DNA from: Muricea muricata
Taxonomy: Eukaryota; Cnidaria; Anthozoa; Malacalcyonacea; Plexauridae
Assembly: GCA_963855995.1 (NCBI GenBank)
Contig: OY979718.1
Coordinates: 40,731,559-40,795,558, forward strand
Direction of reading: 5' to 3'
Length of the DNA: 64,000 nucleotides
Position 1 is the stretch's first letter; every line of letters starts with the position of its first letter. Under the pieces are notes generated by a model. That model had not been told where the DNA came from and ran no database searches. It was given only the letters and a program-made list of their open reading frames with translations. Made by a program: the position numbers and the translations under genes. This document shows positions 17,964 through 58,289 of the stretch, one piece after another.

Positions 17964-18365
<402 letters not shown>

Positions 18366-21062: not shown

Positions 21063-22756
21063 ATAATAATTAATTTTGACCTTACATGAGAAATATTCCA
21101 TGCAAATGACACTGACTGAGTGCGACATAGACTATTTACCTGTTTATATCCAATTCTATTAAACTAATGCTAAAAATGGTGCAAAATCATTGAAGGGTGG
21201 GATGGTGGGAATTTCAAAATATTGTCATGGAGGTCAGACGCTTTTGCTTGCATGTGACAGAATGATACTTTTTGATCCAGGCAGGAAACTATTTAGACGG
21301 CATGGTCAAACCTGATTGGTCCACCTGCCCAGACACATAGGGAGAGATGTAGACAATGGTTTGTTGTTAAAGTTGGCATTGAGCCTAGCACGTGTATGAA
21401 CATGCGTTTCCCAAATCGACCTTTGTACACTGCAAGACTTTGCACAATTTTACTTCTGGCCCAACGCTTGTTTCATTAACTTAAGTTTATAGTGCTGTTA
21501 CACATATAAACTTGCTATTTATTCACGCTATATAGATTTTCAACTTTTCCAGGGGCGTAAGTTACAACTATGCACCAAAGGGGTCAGTTGTAGTTGTACA
21601 AAAGGGGTATACCGCTATCCACCGGATAGCGTCTTTCTTAACTGCTACAGAAAGGCATAAAAAGTAATGGCCATAAAAAGCAAGGATATTGACTTTGCAA
21701 GAGATAAAAAGTGACTTCAACTCGAAAATGTTAATATGGGTTAAAATGTTAATATAAGTTTATATAAAAAGTTGAAAGTTTGAAAGAAGTTTGAGAAAAT
21801 AGCTATCCGATGGCCTAATTTCTCGTTTATCCAATTTCTACTCGTGTTGATATAACTGTATGTCAACATGGAAAATATTTTATGTTTCTTAAATGGAAAT
21901 CACAAATATATAAAAAAACAAAGCACACGCGGTAACATGAAATATTTCTGACGCTTTTATCTGTAATTTATACAGAACAAGCGCCGCTTTGAATTCTGTT
22001 CGTGCGCGTTTTGTATACGCAATTAGGTATGAGGTTTTAACATTTCATACTCTATATCAGTGACTTAAAAGTTGGCTGTTGCCAGATAATTCAACTGGTT
22101 TTATAACTTGTTTTTCTATTTAATATAGAACCATAAATAATCCTTATTTGACTACGAGTTTCAAGTGCAAAATTCCATAATTTGTTCATTTGTAATTTGA
22201 CCATCTCCTGCTCTGGAATTTGAAGTAAATCGACTATCGAAGACATGCACGAGATTTCAAGCTACATTCTGTTTTCCATTTCGCTTTGCTTTCAATAACA
22301 ATGTGGGCAGCATGGTAAGAAAGAGAGAGTGGATATGCTATATTACTACACCATTTACACCAACGTAGCAATCACATTGTTAGCGAGATTAATTGTTTAG
22401 CGAGATTAATAATTTCCATTTAGTCGTGAATATATCAAAGTCACCGATGCGATAGAGTATAGACGTGACTGAGACAATATGTTAACGCTGCAGCGTAGTA
22501 GAATGTTATTTAACTCAATGGACGATCTCTCTGAAGACAGAGTCAATGCCTAGGCTACTTTTCGGTGGCGCCGGCAGGAACTTTTTTTTGGGGGGGGGGG
22601 CACACCCGAGTAACTAATTTCCCTCGCAAGAGAAAAAACCAAGTTGTACATGTTTTCCGTAGCAGGGTACAAAATAGTAAAACCGCACATGATATTTAAT
22701 ATTTATCAAACGATCTTAATACATGTCAGCAGAAATCATTTGCTTGTTTAATTGGT

Positions 22757-23827
22757 GCTGTTCTCGAGTTTTTGAGGACCGATGAGTACAAAATTCGAAA
22801 CATTTTGATAAAAGATATTCAGTTAAGCACGGATTACGCTGGCAGTTTTAACAAAGAAGAAGTTATCCATGACTTGATAACCAATGAAAGAATTTCGTAT
22901 GCAAGGGCATGCGGACAAAGCGGTTTTAGATAATACCGACCAAGTTGGCAACAACTGTCGTACGTACATGGAATCTGTGAATGATCTGAGAATATGTTGT
23001 ACGATTTATAACAAATTTAAAATGGTGCAAGTGCTAGACAGTAAAGACGTTGGTCAGTCATGGAACGACTGGGTATGCCAAAAAGATACGCGTTTAGCAA
23101 AATCTCGTGATTTTTGTAAAGATCGTGCTCTAACCCATGTAAAAGTGTCCCTTTCTTTCGAGGAGGACGTTCCCAGTGACAGCGTCATAGAGGACTGTTT
23201 CAAACGCATAACCCAAACCGTATCGCCTTGTCTTATTCATTCCACACCATTTGCAGTCGTCTGGAGAGCTTACTGTGATGCCTTGTTGCATAGTTTGGTT
23301 GTCATCGATCGAACACGCAAGATTGCCTTGGTCGTCTGTGCGTACAATGAGATCACAAAAAATATGTAAGTGGTCAATTTTTATACGGCTGGTCATGGAA
23401 CGAAATCTACTACCTCTTCAAGGACACTTTTGGCTGTAAACGAAATGTGTGATTGTAGCAAAGCAAGAAGTGGTAAAACCAAAGACACGTTTGTAAACAT
23501 TACGGGAAACGCTATTTTAAACGTGGAATATACGTTGATACAGATTTTCCCACATACTTGATATCCAACGGCTGTTGGTATGAACAAAGCAAAGAAAAGG
23601 AGCATTTACAACATTTAGAGAAAGCAGGATTTGTTCCTCACAAAAACTGCACACCTCGTTTTGCGTACTTGCACGGGCGTGGCGTTAACCGTCAAGGAGA
23701 GATAGAGCTGATTCGAACAGATATCCTGAGCGTCAACGTACCAGGAAGGCAACGTCGCGCCACCCAGAAAGAGCAAAGGAAAATGTCAAGCCCGTGGAGC
23801 ATAAAGGACAAAAGCGTAATCTTGTGA
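22757..23827 (+). pseudogene. Unrecognised multi-frame coding remnant
   Basis: I do not recognise this family. At least four consecutive plus-strand pieces look like one former protein: about 22,757-22,917 (contains NILIKDIQLSTDYAG), 22,884-23,369 (161 codons, contains WNDWVCQKDTRLAKSRDFC and LLHSLVVIDRTRKIALVV), a frame-shifted section at about 23,370-23,560, and 23,558-23,827 (contains HGRGVNRQGEIELIRTDI). Frame changes separate the pieces and no introns are obvious. It sits between repeat block A and the duplicated gene locus, the position that holds a hAT remnant in the other copy. A mobile-element or viral-type origin is possible but unproven. Confidence 0.5.
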
Positions 23828-24014
23828 TTACAAACGATGGAATTTTTTACAAATTCAAGCGCTCCTAATTGGAGAACACTGTAGAGGCTGGAAAATATGT
23901 TTAATTATTCATTTGTGTAGAATTATTAAATTCTTAGGAAATAAACTATTCCAAACGTTAATCTGTGTGTTAAATTCTACAAACTAAGAAACGCTATAAT
24001 ATTTTGTACTAATT

Positions 24015-24967
24015 ACTTCCGATCCAAAACGGACCGGATACACTACTCACGCAACCAAAAAAAATGGTACAGTATGTCACACACGTAACCAAATGTGTTG
24101 TAAAAACAATTTGGTATATCACACACTTAGTCAATTATAATTTTTTTAAATTTCCTCCCTCATATTTGACACGTGCAACCAACTTAAATCATTCGTGCAA
24201 AGAGTATTTTTTGGCATATACCACGTGGTGTTAGCGTTAGCTTACTTGTGGTAAGGTGTAGGTTGTGGTAACTGCAGGATTAGGATTAGCTGAACAAAAG
24301 GTTGTGCTAAGGTCCAGACTTTGGACAATAAAAGAATTTATCATTGTATTGTTCCGATTTTCCTAGACGAAAATAATACCTTAATTTAGCGTAAACATGT
24401 CGTTATATTACATTTCCTTCCCCACAAGAGAATTCTGCATTGGTGCAACCTCACTAAAGAATCTAATAATTTAAAGTTATTAAAATTATTATTATTATAT
24501 AATTAGCTGATACACAAATCTCATTACACACGTACCTTCAATTCAGTGTACAATTACACTATCTAAGAAAAAGGCGAAGTAAAGTTTCATCCCACCACCT
24601 TAAATATTCAGTTTTTATTTTGCCACACAGCCTAGTTAAAAATCCTTAGAAGTGAGGATACTGCTCTGCAACCTCTCCAAGCATCCCTCTCATCAAGTTT
24701 TGTTTATAGCACACAATCACGACAATCTATTAAGCCTATTTTCCATTTAGTCGTAACTGTCGTAAAGTCCTTCTCGACAATGTGATATAGTCTAGATCTA
24801 CCTTTTTTGGTGTGGGCTGTATTCAAATTAGTCATTAGGTGTAGACCAGAGGGTGTAGACCTGCGTACATACTATATCACATATTCAGTAATGCGGCTTG
24901 TTTAGATAAGACATGGCAGTGTCAGTTTGATCTAAAATTGTCTTTTAAGTCAAAACGTTTTGGGATG
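24015..24967. other. 3' flank of the NTase-TPR gene
   Basis: Noncoding sequence shared with 50,411-51,392. Contains a TTTATT (AATAAA on the minus strand) at about 24,614-24,619, a possible polyadenylation signal about 350 bp after the stop codon. No other gene is visible. Confidence 0.4.
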
Positions 24968-27900
24968 TCATACGCGGGAAAATGATTCGATCAATTCCTG
25001 TATGTCCTGATCCGATGGCCAGGAAGAATCAGGATCAGATAAGTCCGTTGCCATCTCGGCAGACGACATATTTCTTATGTTGAACAACAGGTTTATTGCC
25101 TCCCAATCCATACCAGCAACTTTTTCAATATATCTTGCTTCATCTGAATGCTTTAACGCTTCATCTTCCTGTCCAAGGCCTTTACAAGCCGCACTTAAAC
25201 GATTGAGAAGAGCAACAGAATTTCTAAATGTATTTCCGTTTGGAGGAATTCTTCTTTCCGTGTTAATAGCCTTGGTATAATATTTTTTAGCCTCACCGAA
25301 GTTCTCCATCAGCTCTGCAGTATAGGCCAAATTGAAGCAGTTCGCCACCACGGTATCACTGTTGTCATTTTCTCCTAAAATTGCCGATTTCATGTCCAGA
25401 GCGTTCTTCAAGCACTGGAAAGCTTCAGCCAAATCTTCAAGCTCGACATAAACTGTCCCCATGTTATGAAGTATATCAGAAGTTCGAAGATGTATGTGAC
25501 CTGGTCCTAGCATCTCGTCCATCGCCTTTTTTGCTTCCAACAAATATGGCAGTGAATCCTTCCACTTTTCAGCATCTCTCAAAACCGCTCCCAGGGTATT
25601 CAACACCTCAGCGAGTTCGATAGTAGACTTTCCATCGCAGATACTTCTCGCCTGCTTCACAGCGCTTTCTAAGACTTCCTTAGCTTCATTTAATCGATTC
25701 CTTTTGGCGAGAGACGAACCCAAATTCTTGAGTACATCTGTTTTATCTGCAAGTAAGACATCGAGAGAAGTAGCTCACTAGCGTTTTCTGAAATTCATAA
25801 AAAAGATTGGGCCGACCCGTCTCTAACTATATTGGTGCGAGAAATTTGGGAACAAAATAAAACGTAGAGTTCCCAAATTTACCTCACATTACCATTGTAG
25901 ACGACTTCGGCAGAAGTCTTCTTTTCAACTTTGGAATCGCGAATTATGATAATTTTCCATTTTTTCATAAATGTCATGGAAACGGAACGAGGAAATGAAT
26001 AATGAATTTCTACAGTAACTATATCAGCTGCACATGTATTTGTCATATAGTGACTCAGACAATTGTTTTACTTGAGATTGCGCATTAAAAGGATTACTCT
26101 GGGCCCTTCAAAAGCGAGGAGAGAGTCTGTGAAAAGATTAGAATGCTGTAGCTCCCTAGACTTGGATTAAATCCGAGTGGAAATCCGTTGGAATAATGAA
26201 TGGAGCGAAGCCCTAGGTGCAGGTACATTTTTTGAAGTACATTTTCAAGTTTAAAAACAGGCTACTGGATTAACATTGCTGAAATATGTGAGCTGCTTTG
26301 TCCTCGTCTGACTGAATCGTGACTGAACAATGGAGACTGACTTTGGCAACTGCGATACAGGACAGAAACTTTCATTGATTGAAAAAATTCAATAATTCTT
26401 TTTAATGTCTAATCTGGTTTTTCAGATAAACTCCCAAGCTGTGTATCATTGTGCTGCATTTGAGCGAAATGTGGAAAACCACAAGCAAAATGCTTGCTAA
26501 AAAACACAATTATAACAATTTCGAGGAATCCCAAAATGCTCGGTAAATTTATTCTGCTGAAGTTGTCACTTGTCTGAAATAAGCGACTCCTTGTTAACAG
26601 ATGAAAGATCAGGCTAAAAATTGATACCTAAATAGAGGAGTAGAAGTTTGTTTTGTCTGAGTTATAAAGCAGCAAAACTGAATAGCGTTTTTTTAATACA
26701 GCCTGTAGAGGATTCGCTTCAGGGACAATTGGTAAGCAGGTAGTTGATATTATGCCACATATCGAGTAAAAACGCCGCAACATTTGAGCTATTTGGATTC
26801 TATAAAACATACCTAATTTTAGTTCTATATACCTCGGTGTGGACTGTCGCCATGCACACTTCGATATGTATCCAAACTTCGCTTGAACATACACTCAGCT
26901 TTTTCACCCAGACTAAGACGATCATAGACAACGCCTGCAGCATTGCAAATCTGAGCCCATCCAATACTGACATTGTGTTCACCAAGCGCCTTTCGACCAT
27001 CTTGTAATGCTAGATCAATATGTTCCAGTGAGTGTTCGACGTCCTCGAGTCTACTGTACAACCAGGCCATGTTAAGATTAAGCTGAATTGCATCACCAAC
27101 AGGAACGTTGGGTAACGCCTTTTGGATTACTTGTACTTCTTTAAATGTCACGAGAGCTACACCTGTATCACCGTGGATATTGTAGACATAGCCAAGATTC
27201 TGCTTTAAAATAACAAGAATAAGTGTGAGGGTTTCTTTGCCGAAAATTTCATGATACTTACTGATCGCTTCTTTCAACATAGTTATGGCAGCTTCGTAGT
27301 TTCCCGCATCAGTTTGTTTATTTGCTAAAGCATTAAGACACTCGACAACGCCCAATTTTGATACATCTCTATCCTGGCCATTGGCATTGCGATTGACTTG
27401 CAACGCGTTTTCATAGCATTCAACGCTCCTCTCAACTTCCCCTAGCTCGCACTGAACAGCGCCTTGACCCACAAGACTTTTAGCGTACTCTGGACTATCT
27501 TCGGGCTCTGACTTAAGCCACTCTAGCGCTTTAGCAAAATTTTGCAGCCGATAATAAAGATACCCGACCGACACGGCATTCGGGAATGTTGCAGACATGT
27601 TTTGAAATACACTCATATCGATTTGGTCTTCTCGAAAGTACTTCACACAAAAATCAAAGCAGCGGTCGCCAATGTAATCACTAGTGCTAAGCAAACGTAT
27701 CACAACATCTTCACCGAAATCACGGAAGGGGTCGACATCAGCATTATTAGAAACAGGAGAGAATAGTTCGTTCTGACCATTATGAGCAAAGTAGGTTTTC
27801 AACCGTATTTCATTCGCAATTGATAAGCACACTTTAAAGCTGGTACTTGCGGCCTCGCTAATAATTCCCACTGTTTGCAGCTCCGATATTACCTGCCAGG

Positions 27901-30900
27901 GGAAGGGGCATCTGATGCCAAATATCTGCCCCAGATTTGAAAGAAGTAGCGAGATAAAACGGTAGAATTGCTTTTTAGCATCTAAAAGGCCACCCAAATT
28001 AAACTGCCCTCCTTGACAGGACGCCCAAGGGTTATACATATGAATGTCGTACAGCATTTGTTCAATTCCTCGCATGAAGCCAACTGTTTGAGTGGACCTT
28101 CCAGGTTTTCTCGTTGATTTTGCATTTAATTTTTCAGCCGTGTGTTCATTGTATTCGTCAAGTAAAGACTCTTCTCCATAAAGTAAAGCGGCTCTTGACA
28201 TGATATCAGGTAAATGGTGACAACAATTAGGATTATTTTTACAAGGGAAATGAAGAAGCCTTTACCTGTATGTGTGATAGAAATTCACATTGATTTAAAC
28301 AAAACTTTTGCCTCGATTTTCTCGGCTTAAACAATATCTATAAATTCAAAATATTTTCGTAAACAAATTGATTTACAAGAAGGGTATAAAATAGGTCGCT
28401 TTTAAAGCATTTAAAATACTCGCAGTTTGTGCGTTATCAGATATAAAGCACTCCTGTTCGTGTTTTAAATATCCCTTAATGAATCTCTGTACGCAAGTTA
28501 CCACAATCTTTTAGAGAACCCAATAGGTGTCGTTAAGTGGCCCAGCAAAAGTAAAGTACTTCTCTTTCATTTCATTTTACAGCAAAACTAAGATCATAGT
28601 TATTACGGCCAACTAAATTGCCTCGCATGCGAAAAGAGCTAAAATTAAAGTTTGATACATTACACTAAAGTATTAATTGAATATTCACAGAGATATCGAA
28701 AGTTTTGAGAACGCTTAAAATTTGCAAAAAAATAACCTCTTGGGATCTCAGTAATCCCCAGATTATTGCGCATTTATTTGATGTAAACAAAAAAATCAAG
28801 AGCAATTTTCATGGAATTCCTGTACGTTGCTGATATTTCTGATAACAAAAATTCTGAACATAAATTATGACAAACAACCAAAAAAGAATGTAATTATCGC
28901 AAAGCTTTTGTTTAAATAGCTGTATGTGTAAGCTTTTCAAAGCTCCGCCCAAGGCAGTAGAAAAATTTTAAATCGGGGGAAAGGGGGGGGGGGAAGTTCC
29001 AAGATATCTCGACCTTTCAAAAACGACCATTTAACATTTTCGACTGTTAATTCTGCCTTATAGCCTAAACAAGGAGCCCCAATTTAGTTATGTATGTAAC
29101 ACCCCTGCCTCACCCCCGTTGAGCGCCTAACCCGAATCAATAGTAATTTCATTGGGCCTATGAATAATATCTTAAGGAACTACCTTAACTCTCCTGCATA
29201 GCGCTACCAGCTGTTTCATAGTGATCACCACAGCTTCGCATTTTTCATGCGTCATTAAAGAAAGCGTTCCATGTTGTCTTACCTAAATGATAACCTTCTT
29301 TAACAGCGACTTCTTCTTCCTGGAATTTGGCCATTTCTTCTGGTGTTCTGATTAATTCTAATGCGGGTTTATTTTTAGTTTTTCTCCTTCCTAACGGGGT
29401 TTTAGACGCCCATGGCATTGCTCCGTCAAACGAAATCCCATGAGGCGTTTCCGAGTCATAGAACCAACTGTTATTGTGCTCAGATTGAAAGTTGTTCAGC
29501 TCTTCAATTCCTAGAGCGGGCAAAATAGTCTCACCAAGATTAAGAACTTTGAAATGTAGAAAGTGAGTCAATTCTCGGAAGTAGCTAATCTTATCTCCAA
29601 CTGTTGGATCCGAATACAGAATGGCAAATTCCAAGTCTGAATAGGGAGTTGCTTCCATTCGCGCCACTGAACCAAGGGCAATAATTGCATAGTCGCACGG
29701 TGCTTTGCCAAGTCTACTCTCGCATTCCGTGGCCAACATTGACACAAGCCTGATGTACATATCTTGAATATCTCGAAAAACTTCACACATCTTTTCAGCA
29801 TGGATCTTAAAAATAGAATTCATATGTTAACAAGCACTACTACCATGATCTTAATTCTTTAATAGCAAGGATTAATTAAAGAGCAGGCATTGCATGGCAT
29901 TTTCTTCAATATGATTTGTAAACCACTGGGAATAGAATATCTATAGCAAAATGTAGAACTCAAGATTACGTGGTTGCTTGACAAAAATTTAGCCTGCCTG
30001 CATTCCTCAAGAAAAGTCGGACATATTTCTGAATTGCCTATATACAAACAAATATAAATTAATTATGGCTACGAATATGTGCAAGCCATGTCCTAATGGC
30101 AGAACGCATTTATTTTAAGCACATAGGGGGAGGACCTTGGAAAATCCAAGGAAGGGGTGGGGGTTAAAGTACAAAAATCCAGGGGTAGGTTATAAAAAAA
30201 CCTTGGTAATCCAAAGGGACGGGGGTGATCCAGGGGAGGATCTATGAAATCATCGAAATTCCTCGAAAATTCTAAGGGGAGGTTTAGTAAATTAGATCAA
30301 TTCCAAAGGATAATTCTAAGAAACAGGTTCTCCCCCCCCCCCCCTCCATGTGTGAAAAAAAATATTCTGACTATGCCAATGTAATAAGGGTGCGTGCAAA
30401 CAGTGTTAACGCCAGCTCGATGGTTCACTCCAGTGAAAACACAGCTCAAGTTTTTGAGAACTGCATCAAGTTATCTTAATTGATCGACTGACCTCAAGAA
30501 TCACAGTACCTCATAATTTCTATATATCAACTTTTTCTTCGGAGTTAACACGAGAATCAATTTCATTCAGGCGCTCTTTAAAGATACCTCTCTCCCGAGC
30601 AAGCCAGTCCTTATGCGAAACAATTTCATTTTGAATTTCGTCGAGACTAAATTCATAGTCGCCTTTATTTCCACGAACTGTTCGTAAATATTCGCGATAA
30701 GTCTCACCTATTTTTTTTTCGTCAATTTCATGCTTCGTATTTGTGGACCTGACAAGAGCCGCGTTATAAAGAGCGCTGGCCTTTGTGAAATCAGCGCCAT
30801 TTGCAGTCGTCTTGGCCTTTTTCAGGTAACATTCCCCTAATTTGAAAAGAGCGGGCATTTGTTTCGCGGAATCTTGCCCAGCCTCTTTCAGTTCCTTCAC

Positions 30901-30930
30901 GGCTAGCGAAACATTGGTTTTTTTGTCCAT
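24968..30930 (-). CDS. Four-exon nucleotidyltransferase-like / TPR-repeat protein (copy I, intact)
   Basis: Predicted exons on the minus strand: about 30,930-30,550, 29,805-29,283, 28,191-26,833 and 25,746-24,968. They total 3,042 bp, a multiple of three (about 1,013 residues). Exon 2 follows TTTTTAAG and ends TTTAG|GTAAGA. Exon 3 ends GAG|GTATAT and exon 4 follows TTGCAG. The first donor (CGT|GTTAAC) and third acceptor are weaker. Residues about 1-127 are TPR-like. Residues 128-300 hold a nucleotidyltransferase-type signature, GSVARMEATPYSDLEF (G172, S173, E178, S183, D184, E186), resembling DUF294/GlnD-type folds. Residues from about 300 carry ten or more TPR-like helical pairs. A nucleotide-transfer or signalling role with TPR-mediated binding is inference; enzymatic activity is unproven. 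It has a pseudogene paralog at 51,393-57,944. Confidence 0.82.
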
Positions 30931-31224
30931 CTTTGTTGTGTTGCACTGTACTTTTATACTTCTTGGAATCTTATTGTAGCGTAATATGAACTATATACTA
31001 TATAGTAACTTACTCCGGCTACCTTTTTATAGCATCCTTTTAGTAAAAATGAAACTGATGAATATTGAATGTAAGCAAGCTTTAGACTTAGTGAGACGAA
31101 AGTAGCAAAGAATATATCGAAACGAAGAACTACAACCGAGTAATATGAATGTAGTGGAACTCACTATTTAAAACGCTAAATGGCTTAACGCTCCAATATC
31201 TTGAAGAAATGTTTTCGTCCAGAA

Positions 31225-31592
31225 TTGAGGGACTCTGAGGGATTCAAATAAGAAGCTGTTCATCTCTAAGCCTAATACTGACTACCTCAAACGCTCATTC
31301 AGTTATAGTGGTGCGTCTCATTGGAACAGCTTGCCTGAACCTCTCAGATTATCACCATCTCTTACGTCTTTTAAGACTAATCTTGAACATTCATATTCAA
31401 ACAGATTTTCTGACTCCCACACGGCAACCAGGTAGAACAATACTTTAATTTGCATTTGCTATTTCTTTTTACCTACTTATTTACTTTACCTTACCTTATC
31501 TAATTATTTTCACTTTTTTCTTTGTTTGTAAATAGTTGATATTTTTATACTGATGGTTCCTTCCGTGTTTAAATAAAGTATGTACGTATGTA
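31225..31592 (+). pseudogene. LINE 3'-end fragment
   Basis: Plus-strand frame with FSYSGASHWNSLPEPLRLSP and a following stop at about 31,434 matches the C-terminus commonly seen in CR1/Jockey-like LINE proteins. Downstream is a short 3' tail ending in a TATGTACGTATGTAT-type repeat. The paralogous fragment in copy II is split by a MITE. Confidence 0.65.
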
Positions 31593-31937
31593 TCTTCGGC
31601 AGGCCTTTCCGTGTGGGCGGCTCGGTGCGGGGGTCGTTCGGTAGATTACAAGCATTGTTCGATATTTGTATGTGTACACAAGTTTCTTTTATTTTCATTT
31701 AATCCTAAATTTTATTTAATACATGTGATCCGAAATGGTTTAAATTTACATGGAAGAAGTCCATTGAACGTCATAAGCAGCCCCAGTCGGTATTGCTGAG
31801 AACGGGACATTATAGATCTTATATATTGCATTTTATCCATCGTTTGGTATTTTTATTTATATTATTATACATTGCAGTTATTCTGCTAGCAGATAACTGA
31901 GTTACCTGCATGTTGAGCCTACGATGCAGATTATTAC

Positions 31938-32769: not shown

Positions 32770-32900
32770 GATTATTACAGTATGCGGTAATCCCCGAGCC
32801 AACGGCGCGAAGTGCCGTTCCGGGCGTAAGCCCGGGGCGAGGGTTACTAATTTCGTATTAGCGGAGTTCAAAGTCGTTGCTCGTGGTAGTTAGGTAGTAA

Positions 32901-33279
32901 CATAGATATAGTAGACCTAGATTGCTGACGTATACCTAGCGCGCGTGCGTGACCCCCAATAGAAGAATCCAAGATGGCGTCGCAACCGGGCAAAAAAACT
33001 AGGAATAGTGTTACGAAAAACAGGTTTTTGGGCTTTTTTGATCGTTTAACTGCTGCGAATCACGTTCAACTGGACTTTTTTGAAAATAAGTCACTATTGC
33101 GGAGGTTTTGAACCTGAAATGAGACGAGTGGGCTAGATTCTTACAAAATTATCGTTCGCTGAGGATTCCAAGGAGTGGACGTTTTGACGGTTCCGTTAGT
33201 TTGCGTGGATTATCGCACTTTTAACATCTCGAATCACGATCGATCGCGTATATTTAGGAAACGATGTTTATCATCTATG
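32901..33279 (+). repeat. Outer left terminal inverted repeat of the 5.6-kb element
   Basis: Pairs with 38,112-38,486. Substitutions are frequent and small indels few. Holds an ATG frame of 45 codons (starting MASQPGKKTRNSVTKNRF, about 32,973-33,110) that is also open in the right arm. Confidence 0.88.
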
Positions 33280-34236
33280 TTTTAATTGTGAAAAGGAAAG
33301 CGTTTGCCGAATTTTATGAAAAAATATCGTGGGTTAATTTCCTCAGTATCAGCAGCTATACGCCGGCTATGACTGCACATCCACCTCCACCTGGAAGGTA
33401 GAATTTTGTTTGTTTGTTCATTATGGTTTTTATGAGTTTATGGGAAATGATTGTTTGTGTAGAATCTGCTGACAAAGTAGCACAAATGTAAAAACAAATG
33501 ATTTGAATAAGTATGAAAGAAACCCATGTTTCCAATTGGTTTCTATTGATTTATGATTATTGATATCAATACATATAATTTGTGTAAATCTGAGAAGCTA
33601 AGCATAGTTTTAGAGACTCATGATATTATTAAGGTGTACGTGAACATGCATGGGGCTTGATAACATGCATGAATCAAATTAACATTTAATATACTTGAAG
33701 CAAAGATCTGTTAAAATGTTAAATGACCAGGTTTTGTGTCATCAAAACTCAGAAAGTGTCTGGTATTATAAATTATAGATGTACACCTTAATAAAGTTCA
33801 AAATACATATTGCTGGTTGCCAATGTGCTTCTGATTTTGCTCAAAATCAATTACAATATTGAAATCTGCACATGAAAATCTCACCATTTGTCAACAAGCT
33901 GTGCCTGTGACAAATGTGTTGCAAAGATGAAAACAAGTTGTGAAATGCTGTAATTTTTTAAAGCTCCTGTAAGCTTGTTAACAAGACATTTATAAATGCT
34001 TGTAAATGTGTGGGAATGTAAACACACTTTTTGCAAAACAGTTAATTATAAAATCAGATATTCTTTAGGATTGCTACAGAGATAATTAAGCAATATAACT
34101 TGCTACAGAGATAATTGAGTAATATTGACTTCTGCCTATAGGTATCAATTTTCATTTGTAATAAATATGACATCTCTGCAAGCCCAAAGCAGAACTCTGC
34201 ATGTCCATTATTAGCTTATCCCAACTTAAAGTCAAT
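33280..34236. other. Single-copy left shoulder of the 5.6-kb element
   Basis: No equivalent-length partner on the right side. Contains an ATG frame at about 33,264-33,404 that reaches a GGAAG|GTAGAA splice-donor-like site, and a small inverted pair (ATTAAGGTGTAC near 33,629 and GTACACCTTAAT near 33,781). May be a remnant of an autonomous ancestor. No domain recognised. Confidence 0.4.
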
Positions 34237-35127
34237 CATGCTATATGGAAAGCCATAGCTGTCTTAAGTGATAAAACGTCATTTCATTAGGTGCTTTATA
34301 CATTATATACGGTGCTTTAAACATGACATGCGGTGCTTTGAGTATTATATGCGGTGCTTTAAACATTATATGCGGTGCTTTGAGCATTATATGCGGTGCT
34401 TTAAGCATTATATGCGGTGCTTTAATCATTATATGCGGTGCTTTAAACATTATATGCGGTGCTTTAAACATTATATGCGGTGCTTTAAACATTATATGCG
34501 GTGCTTTAAACATTATATGCGGTGCTTCGAGCATTATATGCGGTGCTTTAAACATTATATGCGGTGCTTCGAACATTATATGCGGTGCTTTGAACATTAT
34601 ATGCTGTGCTTTGAGCATTATACGCAGTGCTTTCATCATTATACGCAGGTATTTCATCATTATACGCGGTGCTTTCATCATTATATGCGGTGCTTTCATC
34701 ATTATACGCGGTGATTTCACCTTTGTACGCGGTGCTTTCATCATTATATGCGGTGCTTTCACCTTTATACGCAGTGCTTTGAACATTATACGCGGTGGTT
34801 CCAGCGTCATTATACTCAGTGAGCCAGTACCTTTGGTCAGCGTTGTGGAATGTTACACGATTCTGCTATACGTCATGTCATCAAGAATATCTAAACACTC
34901 ATCGAATATTCATAGGGCGATCACGTGTCATTTCCTGCTTGGAAATTCACAAGTTGAGCGCAGTTATAAAACGGTAAAATATATAAGACTTTTCTGGCGT
35001 TTTAAATCGAAAGTAAACCCAGGGGGTTTGAAATATGGAACAAATACTGCAATCTTTAAATTTGGGGACTTTGCGTGGCCGATTTGAAGCACAGCGAATA
35101 GAACCGCAGGCAGTTTTAAATTTAATG
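34237..35127 (+). repeat. Inner left arm of the nested palindrome
   Basis: Reverse complement of 36,938-37,906 at near identity. Comprises a 60-bp leader (ATGGAAAGCCATAGCTGTCT), a 21-bp minisatellite and a unique 330-bp section. The 60-codon frames in the unique section (34,795-34,977 and 37,269-37,087) differ by only one residue. Confidence 0.95.
34300..34800 (+). repeat. 21-bp minisatellite, left array
   Basis: Consensus TGCGGTGCTTTAAACATTAT plus A, about two dozen units, with variants (GAGC or TCATC replacing AAAC) clustered toward the inner end. Because 21 is a multiple of three, every frame on both strands stays open and produces spurious proteins. Confidence 0.95.
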
Positions 35128-35166
35128 GGAAAAAAATTGAAAAAAAATTTGGGAAAAAAAATTTGA
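35035..35166 (+). CDS. Short SAM-like protein start in the left inner arm (truncated)
   Basis: A 43-codon ATG frame begins MEQILQSLNLGTLRGRFEAQ and continues RIEPQAVLNLM before running into the A-rich centre and a stop. The pattern (short amphipathic helix, xLxLxxLxxxF, xIxPxxVLxLM) resembles the first half of a SAM domain. TATAAAA and ATATATAAG lie about 50-70 bp upstream and could serve as a promoter. The identical start occurs on the opposite arm. It is probably the 5' end of an ancestral transposon gene captured in the palindrome. Function is unproven, and truncation makes a working protein unlikely. Confidence 0.4.
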   Translation: MEQILQSLNLGTLRGRFEAQRIEPQAVLNLMGKKLKKNLGKKI

Positions 35167-36937
35167 AAAAAATTCGGGAAAAAATTTTGAAAAAAAATTT
35201 GGGAAAAAATTTTGAAAAAAGTTAGGGAAAAAAGTTTGAAAAAAAATTCTGGAAAAAATTTTGACAAAAAACTTTGACAAAAAATTCTGAAAAAAAAATT
35301 TGGGAAAAAATCTTGCAAAAAAATTCTGGAAAAAATTTTGAAAAAAAATTGGGAAATCATGAATAATTCATGAATATTTCATGAATAATTCATGAATTTT
35401 TCAGGAAAAAATCTTGAAAAAAATTCCGGAAAGAATTTTGAAAAAGAAATTGGGAAAAAATTTTTTTGTCAAAACTTTTTCCTAATTTTTTTTCAAATTT
35501 TTTTCCCAAATTTTTTTTCAGAATTTTTTCCCAAATTTTTTTTTCAAATTTTTTTCCCAAACTTTTTTTCAAAATTTTTTCCCAAATTTTTTTAGAATTC
35601 TTTTTCCAAATTTTTTTTTCAGAATTTTTTTCCAAATTTTTTTTCGAAATTTTTTCCCAAAATTTTTTCCCAAATTTTTTTGGAAAATTTTAAAAAAAAT
35701 TTGGGAAAAAAATTTTGAAAAAAAAATTTGGGAAAAAATTCTGAAAAAAATTTGGGAAATCATGAATAATTCATGAATATCATGAATAATTCATGAAATT
35801 CATGAATAATTCATGATGATTCATGAATAATTCATGAATTTTCCAGGAAAAAATCTTGAAAAAAAATTCAGGAAAAAATTTTGAAAAAGAAATTGGGAAA
35901 AAAAATTTTGTCAAAATTAAACTTTTTCCTAATTTTTTTCAAAATTTTTTCCTGAAAAATTCATGAATTATTCATGATCATGAATTATTCATGATTTCAT
36001 GAATTATTCATGATTATTCATGAATTATTCATGAATTTCCCAAAATTTTTTTCAAAATTCTTTCCAGAATTTTTTTTCAAGATTTTTTCCCAAATTTTTT
36101 TCAGAATTTTTTGTCAAAGTTTTTTGTCAAAATTTTTTCCCGAATTTTTTTCAAATTTTTTTCCCAAACTTTTTTCAAAATTTTTTCCCAAATTTTTTAT
36201 TCAAAATTTTCCCCAATATTTTTCATGAATTATCATGAATTATTCATGAAATATTCATGAATTATTCATGAATTTCCCAAATTTTTTTTCAAAATTTTTT
36301 CCAGAATTTTTTTTCAAGATTTTTTCCAAAATTTTTTTCCCAAATTTTTTTCAAAATTTTTTCCCAAATTTTTTATTCAAAATTTTCCCCAATATTTTTC
36401 ATGAATTATCATGAATTATTCATGAAATATTCATGAATTTCCCAAATTTTTTTTCAAAATTTTTCCAGAATTTTTTTTCAAGATTTTTTCCCAAATTTTT
36501 TTCAGAATTTTTTGTCAAAATTTTTTCCCGAATTTTTTTTCAAATTTTTTTCCCAAACTTTTTTCAAAATTTTTTCCCAAATTTGTTGTTCAAAATTTTC
36601 CCCAATATTTTTGTCAATTTTTTTTCAGAATTTTTTCCCAATTTTTTTTTTTAGAATTTTTTCCCACATTTTTTTTTCAAAATTTTTTCCCAAATTTTTT
36701 TGTTCAAAATTTTCCCCAATATTTTTCATAAATTATCATGAATTATTCATGAATATTCATGAATTATTCATGAGTTTCCCAAATTTTTTTTCAAAATTTT
36801 TTCCAGAATTTTTTTTCAAGATTTTTTCCCAAATTTTTTTCAGAATTTTTTGCCAAAATTTTTTCCCGAATTTTTTTTCAAATTTTTTTCCCAAATTTTT
36901 TTTCAAAATTTTTTCCCAAAATTTTTCAAAATTTCGC
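35128..36937. repeat. Low-complexity quasi-palindromic centre
   Basis: Left part is built from GGGAAAAAATTTTGAAAAAA-type units, right part from their complements (TTTTTTCAAAATTTTTTCCC), separated and punctuated by ATGAATAATTCATGAA repeats, themselves palindromic. Changes of strand sense occur several times (about 35,465, 35,690 and 35,940). All long open frames here are Lys/Asn- or Phe-rich artefacts. Confidence 0.9.
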
Positions 36938-37029
36938 ATTAAATTTAAAACTGCCTGCGGTTCTATTCGCTGTGCTTCAAATCGGCCACGCAAAGTCCCC
37001 AAATTTAAAGATTGCAGTATTTGTTCCAT
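36757..37029 (-). CDS. Mirror copy of the SAM-like protein start (right inner arm)
   Basis: The minus-strand frame starts MEQILQSLNLGTLRGRFEAQ at 37,029, identical to the left arm, and continues 90 codons because the A-rich centre happens to stay open (Lys-rich tail, LGKKFEKK-type repeats). Only the first 31 residues are plausibly meaningful. The rest is low-complexity translation. A TATA-like sequence sits upstream, as on the left arm. Confidence 0.35.
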   Translation of the reverse strand: MEQILQSLNLGTLRGRFEAQRIEPQAVLNLMRNFEKFWEKILKKNLGKKFEKKFGKKFWQKILKKIWEKILKKNSGKNFEKKFGKLMNNS

Positions 37030-37906
37030 ATTTCAAACCCCCTGGGTTTACTTTCGATTTAAAACGCCAGAAAAGTCTTATATATTTTACCGTTTTATAA
37101 CTGCGCTCAACTTGTAAATTTCCAAGCAGGAAATGACACGTGATCGCCCTATGAATATTCGATGAGTGTTTAGATATTCTTGATGACATGACGTATAGCA
37201 GAATCGTGTAACATTCCACAACGCTGACCAAAGGTACTGGCTCACTGAGTATAATGACGCTGGAACCACCGCGTATAATGTTCAAAGCACTGCGTATAAA
37301 GGTGAAAGCACCGCATATAATGATGAAAGCACCGCGTACAAAGGTGAAATCACCGCGTATAATGATGAAAGCACCGCATATAATGATGAAAGCGCCGCGT
37401 ATAATGATGAAATAACTGCGTATAATGATGAAAGCACTGCGTATAATGCTCAAAGCACAGCATATAATGTTCAAAGCACCGCATATAATGTTCGAAGCAC
37501 CGCATATAATGTTCGAAGCACCGCATATAATGCTCGAAGCACCGCATATAATGTTTAAAGCACCGCATATAATACTCAAAGCACCGCATATAATGTTTAA
37601 AGCACCGCATATAATGCTCGAAGCACCGCATATAATGTTTAAAGCACCGCATATAATGTTTAAAGCACCGCATATAATGTTTAAAGCACCGCATATAATG
37701 TTTAAAGCACCGCATATAATGTTTAAAGCACCGCATATAATGCTTAAAGCACCGCATATAATGCTCAAAGCACCGCATATAATGTTTAAAGCACCGCATA
37801 TAATACTCAAAGCACCGCATGTCATGTTTAAAGCACCGTATATAATGTATAAAGCACCTAATGAAATGACGTTTTATCACTTAAGACAGCTATGGCTTTC
37901 CATAAT
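36938..37906 (-). repeat. Inner right arm of the nested palindrome
   Basis: Near-identical reverse complement of 34,237-35,127 but longer, because its minisatellite has extra units. The frame starting MIKRHFIRCF is 148 codons on the left and 176 on the right. The 28-codon gap equals exactly four 21-bp units. Confidence 0.95.
37268..37868 (-). repeat. 21-bp minisatellite, right array
   Basis: Reverse-complement consensus GCACCGCATATAATGTTTAA plus A, about 28 units. The added units relative to the left array are of the GTTCGAAGCACC and GTTTAAAGCACC types in the middle of the array. Confidence 0.95.
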
Positions 37907-38111
37907 GCTGCCTCCTGCAAACTTGTAGTGTACCAATACTGAAGGACTTTACGCAGATGTTCAATTTCACATTTAATACTAAGCAAAAATCAAAATAACA
38001 CTCAAAATCAAAATCACTAGAAGTAGTAATTTGCAAAAAAGTTAAATTCACTACAAGAACATACTAAACAACCAGTTGTCTACTCCAGAAGTCTTTAACG
38101 AACGATATTTG

Positions 38112-38486
38112 ATATATGATAAACATCGTTTTCTAAATATATGCGATCGGTCGTGATTCGAAGTGTTAAAAGTTCAATAATCCACGCAAACTAACGAAAC
38201 CGGTCAAAACGTCCACTCCTTGAAATCTTTATCGAACGATAATTTTGTAAGAATCTAGCCCAATCTTCTCATTTTGCGCTCAAAACCTCCGCAATAGTGA
38301 TCTATTTTCAAAAAAGTCCAGTTGAAGGTGATTCGCAGCAGTTAAACCATCAAAAAAGCTCAAAAACCTGTTTTTTGTAATACAATTCCTAATGTTTTTG
38401 CCCGGTTGCGACGCCATCTTGGATTCTTCTATTGGGGGTCACGCGCGCTAGGTATACGTCAGCAATCTAGGTCTACTATATCTATG
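38112..38486 (-). repeat. Outer right terminal inverted repeat of the 5.6-kb element
   Basis: Reverse complement of 32,901-33,279 with roughly one difference per 8-10 bases in the stretches compared by eye. Ends TCTACTATATCTATG, followed immediately by the target duplication. Confidence 0.88.
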
Positions 38487-39065
38487 GGTAGTAAAAATAA
38501 TATGTCATGACGTCATCCTCACTGATCTCAACAATATGGCGGACTATCATGAATGGCTAACACTGATTGGCCAGATTTAAAATTTATTGTTGATTGATTA
38601 ATCACGAATTCAAGTTATTCAACTGTCAGCAAATATTTAACCCTTTACTTCATGACATTTTACTTTCATCGCAAAAAAATAATTTTCTTAGGTTTTATAA
38701 CAAGCATCCAGAGAGAAATCAGACCAGAATATGAAAAACCAAGAAAAAATTAATTCTCTAGGAATTTTAGGATGTTGTCACACGACAACATTATGATGTA
38801 AAGGTGCACAAAATTCCTGAATTTGAAAATAGAACTAATGTAAAGTAACCTTAAATAAATTGACAAACAACTTCTTTTTGGCATTCCATAACTTTTAAAA
38901 CTTATAAAATAACAATATTTTACTACATTATTAGCTAAAAGAACCATGTATGCAGTATGTTTAACTTACAAAACTGTTAAAAATATGAATCTAGATTAAT
39001 GTCAATACAATGTGTTCATTGATCTCAAAAATCGAATCAAATTGCACATGCACAGTAGTTTGGTT

Positions 39066-40970
39066 TTAAGCTCCCTGATGAAAATTGTGGAAGCAGTTGC
39101 GATCTTTTACTAAGCACAAGTGAACATGACATTTGCTGCATTCTACTCTGGAATAGCCTTTCTTGCAAAGTCTGCAACGTTGCTGTTTATCAGCAAATAG
39201 GGGGAAATGTCCTACTTGGTCGAACCTTATGTCATTCTGTGGAATTGCAACAGATGATCTTTGGCGCTTTGATGTACCATCGGTATCTGGCACTGGGGAA
39301 AGTGAGGGACGGCCCCGCTTACCTTGTGGTGTCTGTTTTCCTACCTTGCCAGCTTGTAGAAGTGAATTGGCTATTTGAATTTGGAATTTCAGAAGAGGTA
39401 GAACATTCTTCTTAGCAATTTTCTTTTGTTCACAATGTCGTCGATAAATCAGCCATGCATTCACGATAGATACTCCAATGCAATAATAAACAATATGCAT
39501 ATACCATTTTCGGGTACCTAGCTTTATACGGTATAAAGCTAATAGCATGTCGCAAAGATCTACTCCACCCATATGCTTGTTGTACTCGTGCACAATTTCA
39601 GGACATGGAACGTCGATCTTCCCCTTGTCTTTTCCACTCCACCGTTTAACTGGATCTCCACTACCAATTCCGACAAATGATGAGACAAGTTGAACCACTC
39701 CATTGTCCAACCATCGAACAAGAACTACATTAGACTTTTTATCAACACGATAATCAATTGAGCCTCGGCCTTCAGCAACTAGCACTTTCTTGCTTTTCAA
39801 CAGCTTATCTGCTCCAAGCAAGCGATTAGAACGTATTGTACCTAGTGCCCATATTCCATCAGCTTTCAAGTACTTAATCACATTAATGCTGGTAAAAAGA
39901 TTATCAAAATAGACTTTGTGACCAAGATTCTTTGGCAAGTGCTCAACTAGTCGTTTAACTACAGCACCAACTTTACCAAATTCTTTATCTTCTTTTTGCT
40001 TCCCAGTGTACACTTCAAAATCGTACAAAATTCCACTATTTCCACATCTTGCCCATACTTTGATCCCCCATTTGTGGGGTTTCTTTGGTAAATATTGACG
40101 AAGGGAGCTCCTGCACTTGGTTGGAATCATTTGTTCATCAATAGAGTGATATTCTTCACAGGGAACAGCTCTACACTTGGAAACTAATGATTGTAACATT
40201 GGTCTCACTTTGTACAACTTGTCATAATTTGCTTCTCCCTGCTTTGGCATTTTACTGTTGTCCGCTATATGAAAATATCGCTTCAAATTTTCAAAACGAT
40301 TTATGCTCATAACATCTGCAATTGACGGAATTCTTGTTTCTGGAGACCAATACATCCTGTAGGTGGGGTATTTTATGATTCCCATTAGGACCATTATACC
40401 AAGAAATTGTTCCATTTCTTGAATATTGGTTTGTATACTCTTTCCAGAAATTTGCACTGAATACAAGTTCGTCTGTTCGCTAATTGTTTCAATAAGTTCA
40501 TTGTTAAAAAACATGTCGAAATATTTCTTGGGATCAAGATCATTTTCTGGGGGATCTGGGAATGAAGGGCCATTAAATTGGGCATTTACCTCTTCAGGGT
40601 TACATTTTTTCCATTTTACCTCATTCTTGTTTTTTTTATTCTTATTTCCAGATTGAGTTTTCCTCTCTACAGGAACATCACCTGATTCATCATAATCAGT
40701 GCTGTCATCTTCCTCATGATATGAACTTTCAGAAGTGTCTGAATCACTGGTCTCACCCTCAATCTCATCAACAACATCTTCAAACATTTCATCAATCAAA
40801 TTTTTTTCTTGATCAAATAAAGCAAGTTCATCTTCCTCTGGTACATTTGCCTCATCTGTTTCACTCAAATTATTATCTGGTACAAAACTAGCTTCTCGCA
40901 CAGCTTGCCTTCTAAATCCAGTGGCTGACACACAAGTTGTCTTGTAGAACTTGCTCACTTCAATTGGCAT
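39066..40970 (-). CDS. piggyBac-family transposase, intact (634 aa)
   Basis: A single uninterrupted frame in a piggyBac element with TTAA ends. The family excises and inserts DNA by an RNase H-like DDD mechanism. Acidic N-terminus (residues about 37-98), catalytic-core landmarks YHSIDEQMIPTK (D278), HKVYFDNLFTS (D356) and MGGVDLCDM (D471 and D474), the usual positions of the three catalytic aspartates, and a basic stretch near 550-572. The C-terminus has a Cys-rich zinc-binding domain (C599, C602, C611, C614, C619, C626, H628, H631). Length is normal for the family. No stop or frameshift was seen, so it could be active or recently active. Start chosen at the first ATG, 63 residues before the long acidic tract ends. 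Confidence 0.95.
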   Translation of the reverse strand: MPIEVSKFYKTTCVSATGFRRQAVREASFVPDNNLSETDEANVPEEDELALFDQEKNLIDEMFEDVVDEIEGETSDSDTSESSYHEEDDSTDYDESGDVPVERKTQSGNKNKKNKNEVKWKKCNPEEVNAQFNGPSFPDPPENDLDPKKYFDMFFNNELIETISEQTNLYSVQISGKSIQTNIQEMEQFLGIMVLMGIIKYPTYRMYWSPETRIPSIADVMSINRFENLKRYFHIADNSKMPKQGEANYDKLYKVRPMLQSLVSKCRAVPCEEYHSIDEQMIPTKCRSSLRQYLPKKPHKWGIKVWARCGNSGILYDFEVYTGKQKEDKEFGKVGAVVKRLVEHLPKNLGHKVYFDNLFTSINVIKYLKADGIWALGTIRSNRLLGADKLLKSKKVLVAEGRGSIDYRVDKKSNVVLVRWLDNGVVQLVSSFVGIGSGDPVKRWSGKDKGKIDVPCPEIVHEYNKHMGGVDLCDMLLALYRIKLGTRKWYMHIVYYCIGVSIVNAWLIYRRHCEQKKIAKKNVLPLLKFQIQIANSLLQAGKVGKQTPQGKRGRPSLSPVPDTDGTSKRQRSSVAIPQNDIRFDQVGHFPLFADKQQRCRLCKKGYSRVECSKCHVHLCLVKDRNCFHNFHQGA

Positions 40971-47207: not shown

Positions 47208-48690
47208 TCTATATGCTTGTGAAGTTTATAATTTCAATCTACAGGAGAAACAGAAATCATCCTTGGAGGCAAAAAGCATAAAGATTCAAATAAAAATATC
47301 AACATCAATAGATTTGCTGAATTGACGATATTTTTTATGGTGTTGAAATATAAAATTATTAATTACGGAAAATCAAAATCCATTCTATATTAAATGAAAT
47401 TCTCTTTATTCATGCTATACAGATTTTCAAGTTTTTCAGGGGCATAAGTTACAACTATGCACTACAGGGGTCGGTTGTAGTTGCATAGCGCTATCCACCG
47501 GACAGCGATTTTATTAAATGCCACAGAAAGGCATAAAAAGCAATAGCCATAGAAAGCAAGGATCAATATTGACCTTGCAAGAGATAAAAAGTGACTTTAA
47601 CTCGAAAATGCCAAAGTTTGATATGGGTTTTACTAGTTATGGAAAAAGTTTAAAAAGTTAAAAGTTTGAAAGAAGTTTGATAAAATACTTATCCGATGGA
47701 CAGTCTTATTCACCTTTCGTACAAAATTTACGAAAACACTCCGCCCCAATTTCTCGTCTATCCAATTTCCACTGGTGTTGATATAACTGTATGTCAACAT
47801 CGAAAATGTTTTATATTTCTTAAATGGAAATCGCAAGTACATAAAAAAACAAAGCACACGCAGTATCATGAAATATTTCTGACGCTTTTATCTGTATTAT
47901 ATACAGAACAAGCGCCGCTTTGAATTCTGGTCGTGCGCGTTTTGTATGCGCAATTAGGTGTGAGGTTTTAACATTTCATACTCTATATCAGTGACTTAAA
48001 AGTTGGCTGTTGCTAGATATTTTAACTGATTTTATAACTTGTTTTTCTATTTAAAAAAGAACCATAAATAAGCCTTATTTGACTACGAGTTTCAAGTGCA
48101 AAATTCTATAATTTGTGCATTTGTCATTTGACCATCTCCGGCTCTGGAATTTGAAGTAAATCGATTATCAAAGACATGCACGAGATTTCAAGCTACATTC
48201 TGTTTTCCATTTCGCTTTGCTTTCAATAACAATGTGGGCTGCATGGTAAGAAAGAGAGAGTGGATATGCTATATTACTACACCATTTTTGGTAACGTAGC
48301 AAACACACTGTTAGCGAGATTAATTGTTAGCGAGATTAATAATTTTCATTTAGTCGTGAATATATCAAAGTGACCGATGCGATAGAGTACGGACGTGACT
48401 GAGACAATATGTCAACGCTACAGCGTAGTAGAATGTTATTTAACTCAATGGGCGATCTCTCTGAAGACAGTATCAATGCCTCGGCTACTTTTCAGTGGCG
48501 CCGGCAGGAACTTTTTTTTTGGGGGGGGCACACCCGAGTAACTAATTTCCCTCGCAAGAGAAAGAAGCAAGTTGTGCATGTTTTCCGTAGCTGGGTACAA
48601 AATAGTAAAACCACACATGATATTTGATATTTATTAAACGGTCTTAATACATGTCAGCAGAAATCGTTTGCTTGTTTAATTTACAAATAG
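47208..48690 (+). repeat. Repeat block B (paralogous to block A, 20,215-22,750)
   Basis: Starts with the same LINE 3' end (ATATGCTTGTGAAGTTTATA) and ends GCTTGTTTAATTTAC. It carries the same internal landmarks as block A but not the 1.1-kb minisatellite-bearing segment. Ends with GGCGCCGGCAGGAACTTTTT, a poly-G run and CACACCCGAGTAAC. Confidence 0.85.
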
Positions 48691-48896
48691 TTGTTTAATA
48701 TGAACTTTCAATGAACAAGTGAAGAAAGGGAACTTCCGTTAGTCTCAAAATGACTGAACTTTTTTTGTGCTTTGCTGGTTAATTTCTAATTAGTACAAGT
48801 TCCATCTCCGTGGTGATGAATCATAAAAATGTTAAACTAACCTATCAACATCAAGGTTTTGGCAGATATCCGACTCAATTGACATATAAGCATGAG

Positions 48897-50410
48897 TTAT
48901 TGCAGCCGATCTTGTCCTATGGTTGTCCTGAGGCGATTCTTTATGATCTTGAGCTTCCAGAAAGATCTCTCTGCAGACACAGAAGTCAAAGGAACTGTTA
49001 GTGCAATCTTAACCAGTTTAGACAAATTCAGAAAGCATTCACACTCTTTGAGTAACGCACGGTATAGATGCAACAACGATGGTTTTCGCTCTTCCTGCAC
49101 AGCTTTTTCGATGATTTCTTTAATAAGATTTGAGGAACGGATAAATTGCAATTCGAGTGTAAGTGCGTCAGAGTCGACATCCTGGGCAAACCAATCAGCA
49201 GCATGTTTTACGAGCGTAAAGGAATCAGGCGATGTAATGCGACTGGGTTGAAGGTAACCAAACCCATGCACACAAAATCAATCGATTCTCGTCCTTGTAG
49301 CTTGACTCAATTCATGCTATCATGAGATCAAGGATTTGCAAAAAAGAATGAGGCTGACATGTAAATATTTAGCTTTCACTGAAGTTCATGCAGCCGTTAT
49401 ATAAACTAATTATTCTGTACATACTGAAAAATAGAAAGAAACCCCTTTAATTGTCTTTTTGATTGAGCCTAACCGCAGTTTCTGGATGATCGTCTAGCCG
49501 ACTTGGAATCTTTCTTTGTCGTTTTTCAACAAGGGGTTGGATATCAAGATCTTCACATTTTCCCACAGTTGCATTCCAAAACTCTTTTTCACAACGAAGC
49601 AGCCGAATAGCAGTCAGAAAATCATCAACTCGATCGTAACCAGAAACCATGCACATTAAGATCGGCTGACTGGAGTTTGTTTGACACACCTTTACTGAGA
49701 TTCAGAACTTTGCCGAGAACCTAGTAAATAGCAATGTGTATGGTCATGTCATAGAACACTTTAAGTACACAAATCACAACATATAAATCGAAATATTTTG
49801 GCCTACACTTTATGAAAACCTGGTAAATGCTTGCACATTAACGCAGACACAATTCTGCTCTACTGTAATCAGTGTAATGTATGCAAGCATTGAAACCTAA
49901 GAGCAACTAATCTCTCTTCGATGTCTGCTTGATACACATGGCGAACAGTAACGGAGAGTTTCTCTTTGTGGCTGGCATCTGGAGTTTCGTCGGCCATTAC
50001 AGAAAATATATCGGCATCTTTGAGACGTCGTACTATTTCGTCGGTAATAGCTGAGCCTATGACATCAATCATTTCATTTTAGACTTGTCGACTAAGATAC
50101 GATGAATTGTCTTTAATGAAAAATGTTCAAATTTTTGTGAAGATTACATATTTTACTCAAGAGTTAGTCGTTTTTAAATTTCAAAAATGTGCAAATGATT
50201 TTCTACACGTTTCCTTCAAGATAAAAATCTGGAAAAAGAAAAAAAAGTGCGTTATGTATGAATAATATAGATTTAGTGCTTACTTTTCGCATTCTTAAGG
50301 TGAAAATCCATGACACTGAGATCGTTTTGCGCAAAGAACTTAATAATCTCCATGAAAACCCCTTGGTTTTGGCTCACTGTGACCTCTGAACGGAAAATTA
50401 AGAGGGCGTC
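48897..50410 (-). pseudogene. hAT-family transposase remnant (DUF4371-type)
   Basis: Minus-strand pieces in order: about 50,410-50,273 (FRSEVTVSQNQGVFMEIIKF), 50,072-49,869 (FSVMADETPDASHKEKLS, a catalytic-region landmark of DUF4371-type hAT proteins), 49,689-49,447 and 49,271-48,897 with the hAT dimerisation block (VSAERSFWKLKIIKNRLRTT). hAT transposases cut and paste DNA using an RNase H-like core. Gaps and frame changes show decay, although some gaps could be introns. It abuts the left edge of duplication copy II. Confidence 0.75.
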
Positions 50411-57944: not shown

Positions 57945-58289
57945 CTTTGTTGTGTTGCACTGTACTTTTATACTTCTTTGAATCTTATTGTAGCGTAATA
58001 TGAATTATATACTATATAGTAACTTACGCCGGCTACCTTTTTATAGGATCCTTTTAGTAAAAATGAAACTGATGAATATTGAATGTAAGCAAGCTTTAGG
58101 TTTAGTGAGACGAAAGTAGAAAAGAATATATCGAAACGAAGAACTACAACCGAGTAACATGAATGCAGTGGAACTCACTGTCAATAAACCGTGATAAGCA
58201 AAAAGCGATTTTCATGTTTAAACGCTAAATGGCTTAACGCCCCAATATCTTGAAGAAATGTTTTTGTCCAGAATTGGCCATTATACTTT

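Follow-up and report, generated by a model that had tools for sequence, protein, structure and literature searches.

Two nested DNA transposons in Muricea muricata: an IS3EU-like foldback element inside a probable P-type element

Contig OY979718.1 (C3) of the anthozoan Muricea muricata carries a 5.6-kb structure, at positions 32893..38494 of the 64,000-nucleotide window analyzed here (the whole stretch, C3:40731559-40795558), that appears to consist of one palindrome inside another. The host genome searched comprises 453 Mb in 74 contigs, of which C1, C2 and C3 are the three largest and together make up 57% of the genome. We find that the apparent double palindrome is two different transposons, the inner one inserted in the outer one, each present in many copies elsewhere. 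On the outside, the paired flanks show an 8-bp target duplication, GGTAGTAA, at 32893..32900 and again at 38487..38494. Immediately inside it, the sequence CATAGATATAGTAGACC is present exactly at 32901 (+) and 38486 (-) and opens the terminal inverted repeats of the outer element, 32901..33278 (+) and 38112..38486 (-), which pair over 379 columns at 91% identity. The interior of the outer element, 33279..34243 (+), is collinear with a 1.95-kb copy elsewhere in the genome (L024).

Within this interior lies the inner foldback element, 34244..37904, 3661 bp long with ends TATGG..CCATA, delimited by genome-wide end matches and by the empty site described below. It is flanked by ATGCTA at 34238..34243 and ATGCTG at 37905..37910. 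Its two arms pair over 853 nt at 96% identity, and each consists of a 21-bp tandem array (34290..34797, + strand; 37267..37858, - strand) followed by a unique part (34798..35126, +; 36938..37266, -). Comparison and translation of the arms identify in each unique part the start of a gene for a SAM-domain protein: a truncated copy with its start codon at 35035 on the left, and a second start with ATG at 37029 on the right. Between the arms, the composition profile reveals a core (35127..36937) of 80% A+T in which A-rich and T-rich blocks alternate, with TTCATGAA motifs. An earlier note on this DNA had described outer inverted ends bordered left and right by GGTAGTAA, a second inverted pair with arms of about 0.9 kb, a minisatellite in each arm and a strand-switching A/T center, and we recover all of these. 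Its statement that nearly the whole element could fold back on itself does not hold, because about 1 kb on the left, the outer interior at ~33279-34243, has no inverted partner among the pairs found.

The outer element represents a family of roughly 265 copies of a ~2.0-kb non-autonomous element. Its end motif, allowing up to three mismatches, is expected by chance 0.05 times in the window, and two matches occurred in none of 100 shuffles. Genome-wide, with at most one mismatch, the motif occurs 265 times forward and 272 times in reverse, and a reversed-pattern control occurs 0 and 1 times, so that the genome search with element ends suggested earlier does yield other copies. The left end of the window copy matched 42 places, and the 40 scored among 1304 candidates are 96-100% identical to it. 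We read 22 outer elements, comprising 21 in 20 fetched loci and the window copy and excluding end pieces in L010, L023 and L025 that are short or 83% alike. Exact 8-bp duplications flank 19 of the 22 (mispaired control 0/462), including the window copy, which bears out the view of a transposable element with exact 8-bp duplications. Fourteen copies of 1.94-1.95 kb are each 98-100% identical to the majority sequence and a fifteenth, L025b, is 94% identical; among the matches listed, the 31 end pairs on C1 have a median length of 2048 bp. The longest open stretch in the L024 copy is 56 codons.

Comparison with these copies separates the two elements. Against L024, positions 1-1342 and 4999-5586 of the outer element align, and the insert at the window's site is absent from all 12 other outer copies displayed. 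The empty site, CAATCATGCTGCC, is identical in 10 of the 12, with one substitution in L010 and two in L025b. In the window, the junctions read CATGCTA/TATGGAAAGCC...GGCTTTCCATA/ATGCTGCC (slashes mark the element boundaries). The empty site together with these junctions defines the inner element as 34244-37904 and its 6-bp duplication as ATGCTG. Another outer copy, L028, holds the same inner element at a different position, flanked by an exact 6-bp duplication. In the comparison of other copies that the earlier note had advised, the 8-bp duplications recur and the inner palindrome is missing from all 12 copies displayed.

The inner element likewise belongs to a large family. Its 20-base end occurs genome-wide 136 times forward and 130 times in reverse with at most one mismatch (reversed-pattern control 0), and among 100 places listed, 36 end pairs span 372 bp to 15.8 kb with a median of 3.9 kb. 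At 15 of 17 further loci with both flanks sampled the 6-bp duplication is exact (mispaired control 0/272), as it is in L028, L032 and L033. Two relatives of 1.6-1.7 kb, L030 (C1:51.28 Mb) and L031 (C1:87.73 Mb), have identical flanking bases, suggesting that both lie in a duplicated host segment. We read two long members, L032 and L033. L033 contains an uninterrupted 457-codon frame with an rva_4 integrase core (PF24764, E 4.7e-79), catalytic-type spacing of D210, D267 and E302, and no HHCC motif found in this transposase. The corresponding protein in L032 is broken into three frames and is 67% identical to that of L033 over the first 181 residues. Both members carry a second gene, convergent with the transposase, whose SAM domain lies just over Pfam's cut-off in L033 (E 9.3e-05) and under it in L032; the two second genes are 71% identical over 272 residues. 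A HECT-like identity for the later part of this gene was considered and rejected (best E 1.3 to AREL1, with no Pfam match). A transposase search returned 98 rows (93 scored of 1200 candidates), and all ten at 60% identity or more lie on C1. Inner ends enclose six of these ten, in five intervals, and one row at 53% identity adjoins a single inner end.

These relatives point to the origin of the foldback arms. Both arms of the window copy encode MEQILQSLNLGTLRGRFEAQRIEPQAVL, in frame from the ATG codons at 35035 (+) and 37029 (-). The peptide, which begins MEQILQSLNLGTLRGRF in both arms, aligns over 28 residues with the beginning of the SAM gene on the right of L033 (82% identity, E 2e-12), shares 61% identity with the beginning of the SAM gene in L032, and has no significant match to the left-hand transposase gene. 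Since the start of the SAM gene is present in both arms, both appear to derive from the SAM-gene end, with the transposase end lost; judged from these comparisons, the foldback palindrome is an inverted duplication of one parental end. Allowing at most two mismatches, the arm start occurs genome-wide 99 times forward, 90 of them exact, and 108 times in reverse, 94 of them exact, against none for the control. Of the 184 exact arm starts, 100 were listed, and these form 40 convergent pairs and 20 unpaired arms, two of the latter being neighbors in the same orientation. We compared array structure across four elements, the window copy, L028, L089 and L090, the last with one arm only. The left array of the window differs from one L028 arm by 1 gap column and its right array from the right arm of L089 by 0, whereas the two arms within one element differ by 84-147 gap columns; the left array of L089 closely matches none. 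Because some arrays are closer between elements than within them, this four-element comparison favors a foldback that originated once or a few times and then multiplied, as opposed to one duplicated afresh again and again. Relative to the majority sequence the outer element of the window has 21 substitutions, 17 of them shared with L009 and 4 private in 1919 bases, and its inner arms have 1 private substitution in 1850 among the seven arms compared; by this measure both elements look young.

Together, these observations lead us to read the region as nested non-autonomous cut-and-paste DNA transposons, a ~1.95-kb outer element, probably of the P superfamily, and inside it a foldback derivative of IS3EU type, and we put the probability of this reading at about 0.88. 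Several observations pull the other way. Three of the 22 outer elements have no exact 8-bp duplication (7 of 8 bases in L016, none in L011 and L025), two of the 17 further inner loci have no exact 6-bp duplication, none was found at L029, and L030 and L031, with their flanks in common, show none at the expected place. In the window itself the inner duplication matches at 5 of 6 bases. The later part of the second gene has no Pfam match, and the inner family is assigned to IS3EU from published descriptions of that group. The earlier note had proposed one element of undescribed two-palindrome architecture. Such a single element is rejected on the empty site, the separate copies and the unique left junction: the inner pair is a transposon in its own right, which has separate ends, a 6-bp duplication, long relatives and numerous copies elsewhere. 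One composite family of foldbacks, in which two nested palindromes move as one unit, could draw on the imperfect inner duplication beside an outer one that is exact in 8 of 8 bases. It could also draw on the placement of exact-tip foldback loci, which lie inside outer elements in 2 of 4 cases on C1-C3 (the window and L028) versus 0 of 13 tested on C4-C7, where loci were classed by 24-30-base flanks (Fisher p 0.044, for a comparison chosen after the data were seen). However, the left inner/outer junction of the window occurs once in the genome, the insertion point in L028 is another one, and many copies of each element exist without the other, making a composite family very improbable. This particular outer and inner pair may or may not have moved together, the left junction having no sibling; of the earlier claim that the structure arrived as a unit, the exact outer duplication stands. 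We give still less credence to the palindrome being an assembly artefact, from mis-assembly or a chimeric read. Long inverted repeats with A/T-rich cores are prone to misassembly, and the structure was judged from the assembly, but the arm-core-arm layout recurs in 40 convergent pairs drawn from the 100 listed exact arms, other copies have different flanks and exact 6-bp duplications, and the order of A/T blocks agrees among the three elements profiled (the window copy, L089 and, reversed, L028). A layout that recurs at independent loci is unlikely to be a local artefact of assembly.

The remaining adverse points concern the superfamily of the outer element. P-superfamily transposons create 8-bp target duplications, and P elements end in CA..TG, as do the terminal inverted repeats of the outer element. 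At one locus, L088, THAP, Tnp_P_element and TNP-like domains lie on one strand, in several frames, upstream of a match to the outer right end (126 columns, 88%). From the duplications, the CA..TG ends and this incomplete locus, we consider membership of the P superfamily probable. Counting against it, L088 is the single locus that ties outer ends to P, several frames share its broken gene, the outer left end was not found there, the last recognized P domain stops ~1 kb short of the outer end, and the final frame, 288 bp from that end, has no Pfam match. An origin in another superfamily with 8-bp duplications (hAT, Merlin or KDZ), with the P transposase a coincidental neighbor of the L088 end, would account for that lone locus and the ~1-kb gap. 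It also gains from the abundance of P-type matches, the searches having been aimed at P alone among these superfamilies. Set against such a coincidence are the ~0.35 chance neighbors expected within 3 kb on C1 in either orientation (from 91 listed outer ends and 79 P rows on that contig), the direction of the L088 gene toward the matching outer end, and the agreement of the CA..TG ends with P elements. We judge this alternative unlikely, although it keeps more weight than those above. The P-type transposase domain is very common in the genome (150 scored of 723 candidates), with many matches in long open frames. We sought an autonomous outer copy in the long end-to-end intervals L034, L035 and L036 and in the first 3 kb of a fourth, L087, and rejected each: L036 has only ~40 bp per end in common with the outer family, L087 only 29 bp and a weak 65-bp stretch, L034 combines various outer-type pieces, and in L035 other sequence breaks an outer copy 38 bp before its right end. 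The interrupting sequence (L035 1924-10000 and L086) contains a ULP1 peptidase frame and a MULE match below Pfam's cut-off. A further outer copy holds a TTAA-flanked insert (L015 1381-6290) with a frame matching PF20700 (Mutator-like transposase), which we take to be perhaps a Kolobok.

For the two nested transposons of the preferred reading, we infer the superfamily names and a history of mobilization in trans. A THAP/P-type transposase would have moved the ~1.95-kb outer element, leaving the 8-bp duplication, and an rva_4 (DDE) transposase would then have moved the IS3EU-type foldback derivative into it, leaving the 6-bp duplication. The foldback form itself may have arisen in a full-length element whose transposase end gave way to an inverted copy of the SAM-gene end, an A/T-rich core separating the two. 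Faulty gap repair after excision was perhaps responsible, and the foldback would afterwards have multiplied as a unit.

The inner family can be set beside known systems. IS3EU elements end in TA..TA, lack an HHCC motif and usually produce 6-bp duplications (PMC10045372), and fungal IS3EU elements have TAYGG..CCRTA ends and include TET-carrying families whose transposase lies opposite an alpha-kinase gene (PMC12730594). The inner family resembles them in its TA..TA termini, its 6-bp duplications, a DDE transposase without HHCC and a second gene opposite the transposase. It differs in that the second gene is of SAM type versus alpha-kinase in the TET-carrying fungal families, and in that the window copy has no transposase and has internally repetitive 0.9-kb arms. 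These long, internally repetitive arms place it in the foldback structural class with Drosophila FB, Tetris and nematode Tm1, with which it shares long inverted arms, internal tandem repeats and variable length. According to the Tetris paper, most foldbacks seem to be Mutator elements, with exceptions, and Tetris is apparently non-autonomous with 8-10-bp duplications; Tm1 is described with mostly 9-bp duplications. We rejected a Mutator-type origin of this kind for the inner element, whose duplications are 6 bp, not 8-10 bp, and whose relatives carry rva_4. Galileo is described as having long, internally repetitive ends like Foldback and yet a P-type transposase. The outer element here is likewise P-like, with ends of ~375 bp, but the foldback is the inner, unrelated element. 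Nesting itself is ordinary and, in the description of Meloidogyne Tm1, has a precedent in a foldback-like element that hosts another, unrelated inverted-repeat element, although there the foldback is the outer element and the superfamilies differ. An IS3EU foldback did not turn up in the literature searched, which did not extend to Repbase Reports or most subscription journals, and we regard an IS3EU foldback with the distribution described below, on small contigs and near their ends, as a new form.

The foldback is unevenly distributed in the genome. Its 35-base tip occurs 106 times forward and 103 times in reverse with at most one mismatch (95 and 88 exact), and 100 exact matches were listed in contig order, completely for C1-C9. 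Only 8 of the 183 exact tips lie on C1-C3, which hold 57% of the genome (p 9e-53); placing all 26 inexact tips there gives an upper bound of 34/209, or 16% (p 2e-33), with the two ends of one element counted in both statistics though not independent. Exact arm starts agree, with 6 of 184 on C1-C3. On C4-C9, 30 of 50 foldback loci are within 10% of a contig end (10 expected, p 7e-10) and 39 within 20%. By contig the counts within 10% are 6/9 on C4, 6/11 on C5, 6/8 on C6, 10/13 on C7, 0/4 on C8 and 2/5 on C9; C8 is the exception, its four exact-tip loci lying 2.7-4.7 Mb from the nearer end, unlike those of C4 to C7. The 40 best arm matches concur, with 16 of 20 clusters on C7-C16 within 20% of an end. 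As controls, none of 10 places of the outer element on C4-C15 falls within 10% of an end, and on C4-C16, where 28 rows give 27 P-transposase loci once two adjacent rows are merged, 2 do. Ten contig ends of C1 and C4-C7 were inspected: one end of C6 and one of C1 bear TTAGGG arrays, two read N where displayed, and six are neither. The contigs may be chromosomes, with most ends unproven. Targeting, survival, local hopping and an assembly or compartment effect are all candidate causes of this pattern. One conjecture, which we hold to be doubtful, is that the foldback IS3EU form is targeted to the end regions of the smaller chromosomes, or persists nowhere else, while its closest transposase relatives reside on the largest contig, the P-type element serving as its vehicle to large chromosomes, with the window as one example.

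The nested elements sit between the two copies of a tandemly duplicated DUF294/TPR gene region (21814-31783 and 47745-59063), 93-99% identical in the pieces listed and offset by 26-27 kb. Adjoining them at 39066-40970 (-) is an uninterrupted 634-aa DDE_Tnp_1_7 frame, presumably of piggyBac type, and the window also contains a near-perfect (ATA)134 microsatellite at 17964-18365.

What had been claimed as a new architecture is replaced by simple nesting, and in its place a young foldback family with a readable parent transposon is exposed. That the same parental gene start lies in both arms implies a palindrome made by copying one end, and so makes the origin of foldback elements testable. The contrasting locations of the foldback and transposase-bearing copies would offer a good case for weighing target choice against survival near chromosome ends.

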